A stretch of 41,536 nucleotides of DNA, taken from positions 1 to 41,536 of the forward strand of contig VGRJ01000032.1 in the NCBI GenBank assembly GCA_016875405.1, read 5' to 3'. Made by a program: the position numbers and the translations under genes. The stretch is from Deltaproteobacteria bacterium (lineage in GTDB: Bacteria > Myxococcota_A > Polyangia > Polyangiales > Polyangiaceae). Shown here piece by piece: positions 31,313 through 35,484 of the stretch (within the stretch, counting starts at the first letter, position 1; each line of letters begins with the position of its first letter). A model generated the notes under the pieces. It ran no database searches. It saw only the letters and a program-made list of their open reading frames with translations, and was not told where the DNA came from.

Positions 31313-31867
31313 TCAGGGTGTCTTGGCTCGGATGCGCTCCGGGCCGACGTTCTCGTCCCACTCGTTGCCGTAGCCTTCGTAGTGGACGCGGTACTTCTCG
31401 GGGCCGACCACGCCGACGATCACCGCCGGGTAGAAGTGGCGATGGAACTCGACGGTGACGCGATCGCCGAGCTTGTACTTGTTGTTCTTGCTCGCGTCGG
31501 CCGCGGCGCGACGCACCTTCTCCGGCGGCTCGGGCACGTTGGAGATGGGCCCCTCGATGCGTCCCTTCAAGCGGCTCCGCGGGATGATCTCGTCCCACAT
31601 CTCGTCGTAGCCGTCGTAGTGGACCTTCACCTTCCCCGGGCCGGGCACGTCGAGGACCATGGCGGGGTAGCTCTTCCCCTCCCACTCCACGAGGACGTGG
31701 TCGCCGACGTCGTAGGCACGCGTGCACGCCGCGAGCACGGCCGCGAGCGCGAGGGCGCGCGCGAGACGGCTCCCCGGCCGCGTCGAGGTCGCACGGGCGC
31801 GACGCGGCGTGCCGTCGCCCTGGGCTCGGCACCCGTCTCGATCGCGAGGTCGTCGAAGCTGGTCCAT
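31313..31867 (-). CDS. lipoprotein with two Tudor-knot-like repeats
   Basis: A 184-residue protein. After about 30 basic, Arg-rich residues there is a hydrophobic stretch with lipobox Leu-Ala-Ala-Cys (Cys48), so the N-terminal region is unusually long for a signal peptide. Two repeats follow: YDVGDHVLVEWEGKSYPAMV...VHYDGYDEMWDE and YKLGDRVTVEFHRHFYPAVI...VHYEGYGNEWDE. The VHYxGY..xWDE end is typical of Tudor-knot/chromo-like barrels, best known from eukaryotic chromatin factors. No Met or GTG occurs between the chosen ATG (31867) and the lipobox. First gene of the operon with the DUF6918-like protein and the dehydrogenase. Ligand unknown. Confidence 0.75.
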   Translation of the reverse strand: MDQLRRPRDRDGCRAQGDGTPRRARATSTRPGSRLARALALAAVLAACTRAYDVGDHVLVEWEGKSYPAMVLDVPGPGKVKVHYDGYDEMWDEIIPRSRLKGRIEGPISNVPEPPEKVRRAAADASKNNKYKLGDRVTVEFHRHFYPAVIVGVVGPEKYRVHYEGYGNEWDENVGPERIRAKTP

Positions 31868-31998
31868 CGGCTCGTGGCTGCTCGCGCTGCGGGCAGCGAC
31901 TTCGCGTAGCACGCAGCCGGGCGCGCCTCCAAGTGCAGGGACATTCGCGGGTCGCCGTCACCGAGCCGCCCGCCGTCCTGCGAGGCCTCGCGATCTGC

Positions 31999-32004
31999 TA
32001 GGGT
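31999..32004 (+). promoter_or_regulatory. -10-like element TAGGGT
   Basis: TAGGGT ends 6 nt before the ATG at 32011, so transcription could start exactly at the start codon. GAGGGG also lies in this spacer and could act as a ribosome site if transcription starts further upstream. Confidence 0.3.
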
Positions 32005-32010
32005 GAGGGG

Positions 32011-32670
32011 ATGTTGCGCGCGCTCGCCGCCCTCCTCGCCCTCGGCCTGACGGCCTGCGAGAGCTTCGGCGGCGAGCCGGTATCGCCGCTCCCTGGCTCG
32101 GGCAACCAGAAGGAGACCGACGCCGACTATCCGACGGACAACGTGGGGACCTCGGTCGGCAACGTCATCCCGAACTTCTGCTTCCCGGGCTTCGTCGATC
32201 CGGTCGACGCGATGGCCGAGACCGAGATCTGCCTCTCAAACTTCTACAACCCGACCGGCGACGGCACCTTTGGCGCCGACGATCCATTCGACGACGGCGC
32301 GCCGCTCCCGCAGGTGGTCGTCATCGACGTGTCGGGCAAGTGGTGCAGCCCCTGCAAGTACGAGGCGCAGCACGTCCTGCCGGGCGTCTGGGCCGAGCTC
32401 GAACCGCGCGGGCTGATGCTAATGACGGTGCTCGCCGACGGCGGGAAGCCGACCGTCCCCGCGACGATGACCGACCTCGCGCAGTGGTCGGCGGCGTTCC
32501 AGCCGCGCTACCCCAACGTGATCGATCCCAAGTACCAGATGGGCGCGCTGTTCGACTCGAGTCAGTTCCCGGCGTTCTTCGTGCTCGACGCGAGGACGAT
32601 GGTGATCACCCGCTTCGTCGGCGGCAAGCCGCCCGAGACCTTCTGGCAGACCGTGGAGGAGCTCCTGTGA
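32011..32670 (+). CDS. thioredoxin-fold lipoprotein
   Basis: A 219-residue lipoprotein: lipobox Leu-Thr-Ala-Cys (Cys16), a Gly/Asp/Pro linker, then a thioredoxin/TlpA-like fold. The active site is WCSPC (Cys112, Cys115), with the cis-Pro in SSQFPAFFVLD. It should carry out thiol-disulphide exchange in the periplasm. Its stop overlaps the start of the copper monooxygenase-like gene by one base (TGATG), so it may serve that partner's folding or redox state. Confidence 0.88.
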   Translation: MLRALAALLALGLTACESFGGEPVSPLPGSGNQKETDADYPTDNVGTSVGNVIPNFCFPGFVDPVDAMAETEICLSNFYNPTGDGTFGADDPFDDGAPLPQVVVIDVSGKWCSPCKYEAQHVLPGVWAELEPRGLMLMTVLADGGKPTVPATMTDLAQWSAAFQPRYPNVIDPKYQMGALFDSSQFPAFFVLDARTMVITRFVGGKPPETFWQTVEELL

Positions 32671-33587
32671 TGCTTCGTTCGAATCGTGTGGTCTCGTCGA
32701 TCCTTCTCGCGGGCGCGGGCCTCCTCGTCGGATGTTCGAGCGCAGAGTCGCCCAACCCGCCGCCGAGCGTCGAGCCGACCTTGACCTTCGAGACCGAGGA
32801 GTACGAGGTCGGGACCGGCGACGTCTTCGAGTGCTTCTACACCGACACCATCACCGAGGAAGAGCTCGACGTCTACGAGGCGATCGGCAAGCAAGGGCCG
32901 GGGGGACACCACGTGATGGTGTTCTACACCTCGGATATCCACGATCCGGAGCACCACCCGTGCGTCGACTCCGAGATGGTCAACTGGAACATGGTCGCGG
33001 GCGCGGCGGGCTCGGGCGACGACGGACTCAAGCTGCGCGACAACCTCTCGAACCGCGTCCCGAAGGGCGTCCAGCTCGTGCTGCAGGCCCACTACATCAA
33101 CACCACGGCCGCGCCCTACAAGACGCGGGACGCGGTCACCTTGAAGCTGCGCAAGCCGGGCGAGACCGTGGACTACGTGAACTACTTCGCGGTGTTCGAC
33201 GGCGGCTTCACGATCCCGCCGCAGACGACGCACGTGAGCCGGACGCGCTGCACCATCGAGGAGGACCTCCAGCTCGTGTTGTCGCTCGGCCACATGCACG
33301 AGCGCGGACGCCGCTATCGCCTCGAACAGCTGCGTGCCGACGGCACCGTGGAGCGCGTGCTGCGCGACGACACGTGGAGCCCCGAGTACACCTCGCACCC
33401 GCCGATCGATCACTACCCGATCGTCGCGCCGCTCGAGCTCGCGAAGGGGACGGTGCTTCGGCAGACCTGCGAGTGGGACAACGATGGCGCGGCGGCGCTG
33501 CAGTTCCCGACCGAGATGTGCGTCGGGTTCTTCTACTACTTCCCGGGAACCGGCGACAAAGTCTGCGCCGCGCTCCCCGAGCCGTGA
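32670..33587 (+). CDS. copper type II monooxygenase-like lipoprotein (PHM/DBH fold)
   Basis: A 305-residue lipoprotein: lipobox Leu-Val-Gly-Cys (Cys22). Its core matches copper type II ascorbate-dependent monooxygenases (peptidylglycine alpha-hydroxylating monooxygenase, dopamine beta-hydroxylase). Likely CuH ligands: His80-His81 in GGHHVMVFY and His141 in LQAHY. Likely CuM ligands: His208 and His210 in LGHMHERG, and Met283 in TEMCVGFFYY. All six are present and in the right order. Paired Cys may form disulphides. Substrate unknown; such enzymes hydroxylate C-H bonds with O2 and ascorbate. It follows the thioredoxin-fold gene and ends 4 nt from convergent pyrE. Confidence 0.88.
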   Translation: MLRSNRVVSSILLAGAGLLVGCSSAESPNPPPSVEPTLTFETEEYEVGTGDVFECFYTDTITEEELDVYEAIGKQGPGGHHVMVFYTSDIHDPEHHPCVDSEMVNWNMVAGAAGSGDDGLKLRDNLSNRVPKGVQLVLQAHYINTTAAPYKTRDAVTLKLRKPGETVDYVNYFAVFDGGFTIPPQTTHVSRTRCTIEEDLQLVLSLGHMHERGRRYRLEQLRADGTVERVLRDDTWSPEYTSHPPIDHYPIVAPLELAKGTVLRQTCEWDNDGAAALQFPTEMCVGFFYYFPGTGDKVCAALPEP

Positions 33588-33591
33588 CCGC

Positions 33592-34206
33592 TCAGGAGCG
33601 CGTGTCGGCGAGCGTCGACAGGAAGTCGTCGTCCTCGTCGGCGATGAAATCGTGGCGCGTGTAGAGCGTGACCACCTCGACGCCCGCCGCGCGCACCGCC
33701 TCGACGCCACCCTCGAGCCTATCGACCAGCACCGCGACCGCCACGACGTCGACGCCCGCCTCGCGCAAGGTCGCGATCGCCTGCAAGGTCGACCCGCCGG
33801 TGGTGATCACATCTTCGAGGAGGACGACGCGCATCCCCGGACGAAAGGGGCCCTCGATGAGGCGGCGCGTGCCATGGTCCTTCGCCTCTTTGCGCACGTA
33901 GAGCGCATGGAGCGACCGGCCCCGCAGCGCGCTCGTCAGCGACACCGCGCTCGCGAGGGGGCAGCCACCGAGGGCGACGCCTGCGACGGCGTGGAGATCG
34001 TGGAGGTGTCGGATCCCGTCGAGGACCAGCTCCGCGACGAGCTGGTGACCACGCGCGGTGAGAACGGTCTGCTTGCAGTCAATGAAGAAGTCGCTCTCTT
34101 TGCCAGAGGCGAGCAGCACCCGCCCCTCGCGGTACGAGAGCTTGCGTAGGAGCTCGAGAAGCTCGGGGCGGGCCTCGGCGGTCTTGTCGCGACGCGAGCG
34201 AGCCAT
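33592..34206 (-). CDS. pyrE: orotate phosphoribosyltransferase
   Basis: A 204-residue enzyme of pyrimidine synthesis that joins orotate to PRPP, making OMP. The PRPP motif is VVLLEDVITTGGST (127-140), with ESDFFIDCKQT near the N-terminus. Length fits the family. Its ATG lies 2 nt after the stop of the first bactofilin gene, so it is probably expressed with the bactofilins. The C-terminal Asp/Glu-rich end (ADEDDDFL) is variable. The last residues lie 4 nt from the convergent monooxygenase gene. Confidence 0.92.
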   Translation of the reverse strand: MARSRRDKTAEARPELLELLRKLSYREGRVLLASGKESDFFIDCKQTVLTARGHQLVAELVLDGIRHLHDLHAVAGVALGGCPLASAVSLTSALRGRSLHALYVRKEAKDHGTRRLIEGPFRPGMRVVLLEDVITTGGSTLQAIATLREAGVDVVAVAVLVDRLEGGVEAVRAAGVEVVTLYTRHDFIADEDDDFLSTLADTRS

Positions 34207-34208
34207 CG

Positions 34209-34781
34209 CTAGCGAGCGCGGCGCTTCTGCGCCTTCTTGGTGCGCTTCTGGAGCGCGGGGACCACCGGCTCAGGGGCGCGCTTCGGGGCGGCCTCGGCTC
34301 GCACCGCGGGGGGCGTGGCGGCGGGCTTCGTGACGGGGGGCGCGCTCACCTTGGCGGCGACGCGGGGCGGCGGTGCCACGACGGGCGCCTGACGCGCGGT
34401 CGACTTGGAGGCCACCGCGGCGGCTGGGGAGCGAGCAGGGCGAGCCTCGGCGGCGGGCGCCTCACCGGTGGCGACGCGACCTCGCAGCTTCGCCCCGGGG
34501 CGAATGCCGATCGAAGGAGCGGACACGTCGCCGACGACGCGCGCCCCGTCTTCGAGGACGACGCGCTCGCTGCCGCGCAGGTTGCCGGAGACCGCGCCCG
34601 CGACCACGACGCTCTGCGCCGCGAGATCGCTCTTCACCATGCCGTCGGGCCCGACGACGAGGTGGCCCGCCACCTCGACCGTCCCCTCGACGTGCCCGTG
34701 GATCTCAAGGTCACCGTCGGACTGGATGCGCCCGCGGATCACGGTGCCCGCGGCGATGATCGAGGTGTCTTTCGGGGCCAT
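34209..34781 (-). CDS. bactofilin with long basic C-terminal tail
   Basis: A 190-residue protein. The bactofilin domain (about 5-105) has the repeated short beta strands with Gly/Val pattern (IRGRIQSDGDLEIHGHVEGTVEV, VVVAGAVSGNLRGS). The rest is a Pro/Ala/Val-rich tail ending in the basic KRTKKAQKRRAR. It resembles the design of Myxococcus BacP, whose tail recruits a partner. ATG at 34781 is chosen because the conserved part starts there. Confidence 0.88.
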   Translation of the reverse strand: MAPKDTSIIAAGTVIRGRIQSDGDLEIHGHVEGTVEVAGHLVVGPDGMVKSDLAAQSVVVAGAVSGNLRGSERVVLEDGARVVGDVSAPSIGIRPGAKLRGRVATGEAPAAEARPARSPAAAVASKSTARQAPVVAPPPRVAAKVSAPPVTKPAATPPAVRAEAAPKRAPEPVVPALQKRTKKAQKRRAR

Positions 34782-34785
34782 CGGC

Positions 34786-35100
34786 TCAGACCTCCATGTC
34801 GACGTTGCCCTTGAACACGGCACCGTCCGCGATGGTGAGGCGCGCGGCCTTGACGTCGCCGACGAGCCGCCCGCCCGAGAGCAGATCGACGCGATCGTTC
34901 GCCGTCACGTTGCCGGTCACATGGCCGCCGATCGCGACCGACTGCGCCGCGATGTCGGCCTCGACGACGGCGTCGCCCTCGACGGTGACGGCGCCCTCGG
35001 ACTCGAGCTTGCCGCGCAGGGTGCCGCCGACGATGACCTCATCGTCCGACGAGACCTCGCCCTCAATGGTGATTCCGGGTCCGATGACTGTTGCTGCCAC
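34786..35100 (-). CDS. short bactofilin
   Basis: A 104-residue protein that is nearly all bactofilin domain (ITIEGEVSSDDEVIVGGTLRGKLES, AQSVAIGGHVTGNVTAN), with no extension. Bactofilins polymerise into filaments without nucleotide. It lies 4 nt before the tailed bactofilin and 33 nt after the third copy, so co-transcription and mixed filaments are likely. Confidence 0.9.
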   Translation of the reverse strand: MAATVIGPGITIEGEVSSDDEVIVGGTLRGKLESEGAVTVEGDAVVEADIAAQSVAIGGHVTGNVTANDRVDLLSGGRLVGDVKAARLTIADGAVFKGNVDMEV

Positions 35101-35133
35101 GCTGATGCTCCGTCCGTTACGCGGTCTACGACC

Positions 35134-35484
35134 TCAAGCGAGCGCGTCCGGCAGCTCGAAATCCGCCGAGACCCGTCCGTGAAACTGCCCGCCTTCTTCG
35201 AGCACGAGGCTCGCCGCCTCGACATCGCCGCGGAGCGACCCGGTGGCCGTCACGACCACCTCGCCGCGTACCTCGACGTCGCCTCGGAGCGCGCCCGACA
35301 CCGTGACCGTCTCGGCCGCGACCGCGCCGCGAACCTCGGCGCCCTCGCCGAGCTCGAGCGCCCCCGAGACGGTGACGTCGCCCTCGACCTGCGCCTCGAC
35401 ACGCAGGTCGCCCTCGCCGCGCACGCGCCCTCGCACGCGCAGCCCACGACCCAACACCGTCGCTTCGGTCGAACCCTTGGCCAT
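35134..35484 (-). CDS. bactofilin
   Basis: A 116-residue bactofilin with regular six-residue strands (RVRGRVRGEGDLRVEAQVEGDVTV, ALRGDVEVRGEVVVTATGS). First gene of the operon bactofilin-bactofilin-bactofilin-pyrE. The ATG at 35484 begins the usual short N-terminus; the open frame upstream is a shadow of the esterase gene region. Confidence 0.88.
   Translation of the reverse strand: MAKGSTEATVLGRGLRVRGRVRGEGDLRVEAQVEGDVTVSGALELGEGAEVRGAVAAETVTVSGALRGDVEVRGEVVVTATGSLRGDVEAASLVLEEGGQFHGRVSADFELPDALA

Follow-up and report, generated by a model that had tools for sequence, protein, structure and literature searches.

Does the lipoprotein gene at this locus encode a working copper hydroxylase of the PHM/DBH kind, and does it form a functional unit with the thioredoxin-fold lipoprotein gene directly upstream? 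The locus lies in a stretch of 41,536 nucleotides from a Deltaproteobacteria bacterium in the myxobacterial group, hereafter the window, and consists, as the original prediction had described, of two plus-strand genes, a WCSPC-containing lipoprotein gene followed by a hydroxylase-like gene whose start overlaps its stop (Table 1). The overlap amounts to a single base within TGATG (thioredoxin TGA at 32668-32670, hydroxylase ATG at 32670-32672), and a GGAGGAG element is read 8 nt upstream of the second start. Both features make co-translation plausible, and in the window the hydroxylase may be translated together with the upstream protein. Beyond pyrE, which closes the locus on one side, three bactofilin-like genes, identified by sequence reading, stand in a row (34209-35484). 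A plasmid search gave no match.

Table 1. Coordinates of features in the window and of Cys-rich genes at related loci
Position	Strand	Feature	Conservation or basis
31313-31738	minus	Tudor-like gene, flanking the gene pair	named by sequence reading
32011..32670	+	ResA/TlpA-like thioredoxin-fold lipoprotein, 219 aa, P0002; upstream neighbour of the hydroxylase-like gene
32341..32355	+	redox motif WCSPC in the upstream lipoprotein	W111, C112, C115 invariant in 26 homologues
32655..32661	+	GGAGGAG, putative ribosome-binding site of the hydroxylase-like gene	within the upstream gene, at its 3' end
32670..33587	+	PHM/DBH-like (type II copper monooxygenase) lipoprotein, 305 aa, P0001
32733..32735	+	Cys22, predicted lipidated residue, lipobox LVGC	sequence read by eye
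32907..32912	+	H80-H81 in GGHHVMVF, putative CuH ligands (PHM His107, His108)	invariant 37/37; aligned with PHM HH
33090..33092	+	H141 in QAHYIN, putative third CuH ligand (PHM His172)	invariant 37/37 and 110/110
33291..33299	+	H208-M-H210 in GHMHERG, putative CuM ligands (PHM His242, His244)	invariant 37/37 and 110/110
33516..33518	+	M283 in TEMC, putative CuM thioether ligand (PHM Met314)	36/37 and 108/110
33592-34206	minus	pyrE, other flank of the gene pair	named by sequence reading
L091:8903-9418		Cys-rich gene beside hydroxylase
L093:8924-9307		Cys-rich gene beside hydroxylase
L097:3544-3891		Cys-rich gene beside hydroxylase
L099:8810-9166		Cys-rich gene beside hydroxylase

Routine annotation shows half an enzyme, since Pfam finds the C-terminal domain of the window protein (PF03712, Cu2_monoox_C, 7.6e-10, 38.9 bits against a cut-off of 23, the single Pfam match) and misses the N-terminal, CuH-binding one: PF01082 (Cu2_monooxygen) gave no match in the window protein and matched one of its 37 homologues, at E 0.002. 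Searching the PDB by phmmer from the window sequence alone also returned no match, and a profile was needed. The profile of the 37-homologue family reached rat PHM at about 2.4e-20 to 2.6e-20 and human DBH at 9.2e-13, with no further PDB match below E 0.1, and its alignment spans both PHM domains with the HH, H, HxH and Met motifs in register. The N-terminal domain is thereby aligned with the HH pair and third His of PHM, and residues 34-305 of the predicted model superpose on PHM 60-341. The PHM/DBH homology first recognized from motifs is upheld by the Pfam and the profile matches alike.

The model, built with AlphaFold2 from a 37-sequence alignment of the window protein and fetched loci, has a mean pLDDT of 90 and a pTM of 0.81, with low values in the signal peptide and linker only. 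The first 31 Foldseek matches in the PDB are all PHM or DBH, and VIA-align gives Z scores of 22.9 to PHM 6ala_A (rmsd 3.1, 262 aligned), 22.4 to DBH 4zel_A and 19-22 to other PHM entries; the next fold, PNGase F, is a similar two-sandwich fold matched at Z 8.7 only. At the level of the fold, then, the comparison with PHM that had been suggested as a check yields a predicted two-domain PHM/DBH architecture (Z 21-23 against 8.7). The closed PHM and DBH forms, 6ala_A and 4zel_A, fit the model slightly better than the other entries listed (rmsd 3.0-3.1 Å against 3.7-5.3 Å), and we read no mechanism into this because the closed structure of PHM comes from a copper-site mutant containing citrate (PMC6123673).

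Are the copper sites intact? All six putative ligands claimed for the window protein are present and aligned with those of PHM, and the residue number assigned to Met283 was correct. Across 37 aligned sequences with identities of 20-53%, none of the five His varies, and 36 sequences have the Met. The search for homologues without Met283 and the His pairs, proposed as the way to overturn the prediction, left it standing: 107 of 110 surveyed PHM-like domains keep H80, H81, H141, H208, H210 and M283, the exceptions being one fragment (L136) and two members of one clade with Met replaced by His. These two, L049:6056-7138 (C28 of the window genome) and L170:5937-7124, form a subclade in which EHC stands in place of EMC, with His at the CuM Met position. 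Cysteines 55, 98, 194, 267, 284 and 299 are conserved across the hydroxylase-like family, and the predicted pairs 55-98, 194-299 and 267-284 correspond by position to Cys232-283, Cys390-503 and Cys466-488, which are disulfide pairs of DBH (PMC3197665). The description as a lipoprotein is also supported, and with it export, the LVGC lipobox (Cys22) being predicted by eye; the proposed placement on the cell surface goes beyond the sequence, which speaks for lipoprotein status only.

The homology and the complete ligand set make the dicopper hydroxylase originally proposed a plausible reading, and we take the window protein to be, with a probability of roughly 0.72, a working dicopper hydroxylase of the type II (uncoupled dinuclear) copper monooxygenase superfamily. 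The dicopper scaffold might instead have been kept for a role as copper store, sensor or copper-dependent redox carrier. Many paralogues per genome, a window in which conserved catabolic neighbours are missing and a substrate pocket that has no residues in common with PHM would all agree with such a role, but the two-domain fold and the full set of ligands, CuM Met included, are fixed at 20-30% identity. A simple copper store in particular is disfavoured because it would not need both sites to be kept exactly, and we regard the whole group of such roles as unlikely. For the preferred hydroxylase, we propose the following mechanism by homology. The gene product would be an exported lipoprotein, for which we infer copper binding, catalysis, electron donor and location. 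Electrons would enter at the N-terminal beta-sandwich, which would hold CuH through H80, H81 and H141, and O2 and substrate would react at CuM, held by H208, H210 and M283 in the C-terminal beta-sandwich, where a C–H bond would be hydroxylated.

How unusual is such a protein in a bacterium? The original prediction treated these enzymes as known mainly from animals, and this rarity did not hold. The family occurs in 77 of 188 sampled Myxococcota genomes at 1e-5, and PF03712 scores above its cut-off in 27 of 57, a carriage of 41-47% over both samples; none of 14 named control genomes has a PF03712 match above cut-off. PF03712 and P0001 each match eight times in the window genome, in overlapping sets that correspond to about eight copies. 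Related loci were retrieved with a narrower alignment (A2), whereas the single protein and a broad alignment (A1) retrieved nothing; the named relatives are Myxococcota metagenome genomes, with Poribacteria more distant. The window gene is an ordinary member of a large, widespread bacterial branch. In the open-access literature we found no experimentally characterised bacterial PHM/DBH homologue, and no biochemistry on the window protein or its close bacterial relatives.

What is the relevance of the adjoining thioredoxin-fold lipoprotein? The upstream protein has a lipobox (LTAC, Cys16, by eye) and WCSPC at residues 111-115, and its AlphaFold2 model (pLDDT 88.6) finds ResA and DsbE-like proteins as best Foldseek matches (ResA-type at 2.2e-8 to 1e-7). 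It shares the thioredoxin fold, WCxxC motif and export signal with ResA/TlpA/DsbE-like oxidoreductases, although it falls far under the NCBIfam cut-offs for ResA (20.2 against 170 bits) and DsbE (14.4 against 123 bits). All five genomes of the genus carry an orthologue, with 53-71% identity over the aligned proteins, and in one of the five, that of the window, the hydroxylase adjoins it. In G163 and G190 pyrE comes immediately after the thioredoxin gene (26 bases on in G163), the two being separated by the hydroxylase in the window, and neither of those genomes (98% and 97% complete) holds a close hydroxylase homologue. The hydroxylase of G188 and G189 sits at a separate locus, with a Cys-rich lipoprotein gene next to it and genes for AI-2E-type and ABC transporters, named by sequence reading, in the vicinity. 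The thioredoxin-hydroxylase pair is therefore unique to the window among these genomes, and a survey of about 97 loci from Myxococcota, with as much as 16 kb of surrounding sequence, found no other relative of the window thioredoxin adjacent to a hydroxylase. A conserved thioredoxin-hydroxylase operon can be set aside on this distribution, and the search for orthologue pairs in other Myxococcota, from which the proposed coupling was to be judged, went against it. We read the pairing as one of local origin, seemingly an accident of this locus and no fixed partnership.

It is conceivable that the thioredoxin-fold lipoprotein is nevertheless a functional partner, which would reduce or fold the hydroxylase or deliver copper or electrons to it, possibly in a recent local arrangement. 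The one-base overlap is compatible with this, as is the fold of the upstream protein, since proteins of the ResA/TlpA fold are known to act on the thiols of exported metalloproteins. Fusions and neighbours point the same way: in 11 Poribacteria loci (L120-L130, e.g. L120:6729-8603; Pfam check on two) a redoxin, a cytochrome c (CXXCH) and the hydroxylase form one chain, and another hydroxylase paralogue of the window genome has a divergent, adjacent AhpC-TSA gene. The Poribacteria redoxin, however, has CPVA in place of CXXC and belongs to a distant branch of the tree, and the restriction of the adjacency to one of five genus genomes, with no second case in the Myxococcota loci, weighs further against the partnership, which we consider improbable.

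The AhpC-TSA gene (L048:4649-5179, C127 of the window genome) is in two pieces and possibly frameshifted. Two membrane genes, by sequence reading a UbiA-like prenyltransferase and a carotenoid-type membrane protein, precede the thioredoxin gene in the other four genus genomes (as at L090:4682-6393; one is truncated in G190, where the contig stops) and are missing from the window at 31738-32011. The prenyltransferase was not found elsewhere in the window genome.

Two other partners recur across the family. In the smallest well-supported clade that contains the window gene (SH-aLRT 99 in what is a quick phylogenetic tree), a Cys-rich lipoprotein gene lies directly downstream of the hydroxylase in seven of eight members, and the window copy is the one without it. 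The motif of this protein is CVxPGDxGNxxGVGxYC..., its gene start overlaps or nearly overlaps the hydroxylase end in several loci, and in related branches the Cys-rich domain is fused to the hydroxylase C-terminus (L100-L116). The domain matches no Pfam family above cut-off and bears a weak resemblance to WAP and Dickkopf_N. A model of the Cys-rich family, which recovers the G188 and G189 members as positive controls, finds no match in the window genome, G163 or G190, metagenome-assembled genomes being liable to miss genes. In a Sandaracinus metagenome genome (L104:411-2572), tandem hydroxylase-like genes occur with a divergent Cys-rich lipoprotein gene.

The window copy could on these grounds be a relic, which lost its Cys-rich partner on moving into the slot between thioredoxin and pyrE and whose function is fading: it alone in its clade is without the partner, and the partner family is missing from its genome. 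Its reading frame is intact, however, a likely ribosome-binding site precedes it, every ligand and cysteine is kept, and the relatives L095 and L098 also stand without an adjacent Cys-rich partner. Decay of this kind therefore seems to us quite unlikely.

Cytochrome c is the second recurrent partner. N-terminal cytochrome c domains occur in other branches, with CX4CH together with the Cys-rich fusion (10) or with CX2CH (16), and a cytochrome c-like gene is adjacent to the hydroxylase in 14 further loci; the neighbour survey over-represents relatives of the window hydroxylase and used motif rules and a simple in-house gene caller, and its counts express recurrence while its percentages are indicative. 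The N-terminal parts of L107-L118 are cytochrome c-like with CX4CH replacing the CXXCH heme motif, fused to hydroxylase and Cys-rich domain. Given how many family members bear or adjoin a cytochrome c, the most probable electron donor in general would be a periplasmic cytochrome c, and the recurrence of these domains suggests a donor other than ascorbate. With no such partner in cis, the window hydroxylase would draw on a diffusible periplasmic protein or a small molecule. We tentatively extend the dicopper hydroxylase reading, at somewhat less than even odds, to a picture in which Myxococcota hold a large and diversified PHM/DBH-type dicopper branch that takes its electrons from joined or adjacent cytochrome c and not from ascorbate, often with a dedicated Cys-rich partner, and in which the window gene is a reduced version that has shed this partner and come to lie behind a thioredoxin gene.

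A bacterial branch with a full active site and many cytochrome c fusions would give small soluble proteins for tests of electron transfer between CuH and CuM, would let the natural electron donor be tested, and would open a pool of candidate C–H hydroxylases.

How does the window protein compare with the known enzymes? PHM and DBH have been studied as neuroendocrine, ascorbate-dependent enzymes. With PHM (1phm, 1opm, 6ala) the window protein shares two predicted beta-sandwich domains, the six copper ligand residues, the positions of the core disulfide pairs and a Gln two residues before the third CuH His, but it is a bacterial lipoprotein with 15-17% identity, no lyase domain and no known ascorbate system. 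Near CuM, PHM has Arg240, two residues before His242, and Tyr318, four after Met314, which we take to be peptidylglycine substrate-binding residues; the window protein has Leu206 and Phe287 at these positions, which vary across the family. These replacements imply that substrate recognition differs from that of PHM and speak against PHM proper, with its peptide amidation. With the substrate residues of PHM lost, we would expect copper chemistry like that of PHM/DBH in a protein that is neither by substrate, and a peptidylglycine or catecholamine substrate is unlikely. With DBH (4zel) it shares the catalytic core, the ligands and the three disulfide-pair positions, at 18% identity; DBH proper is excluded, as the N-terminal DOMON domain is absent from a protein of 305 aa with a single Pfam match and a core that starts at about residue 34. 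The bacterial PF03712 proteins of Myxococcota and Poribacteria are its direct homologues, with identical ligands. Many of them have additional domains, whether cytochrome c (with CX2CH or CX4CH), Cys-rich or redoxin, whereas the window copy consists of the bare core beside an unrelated gene.
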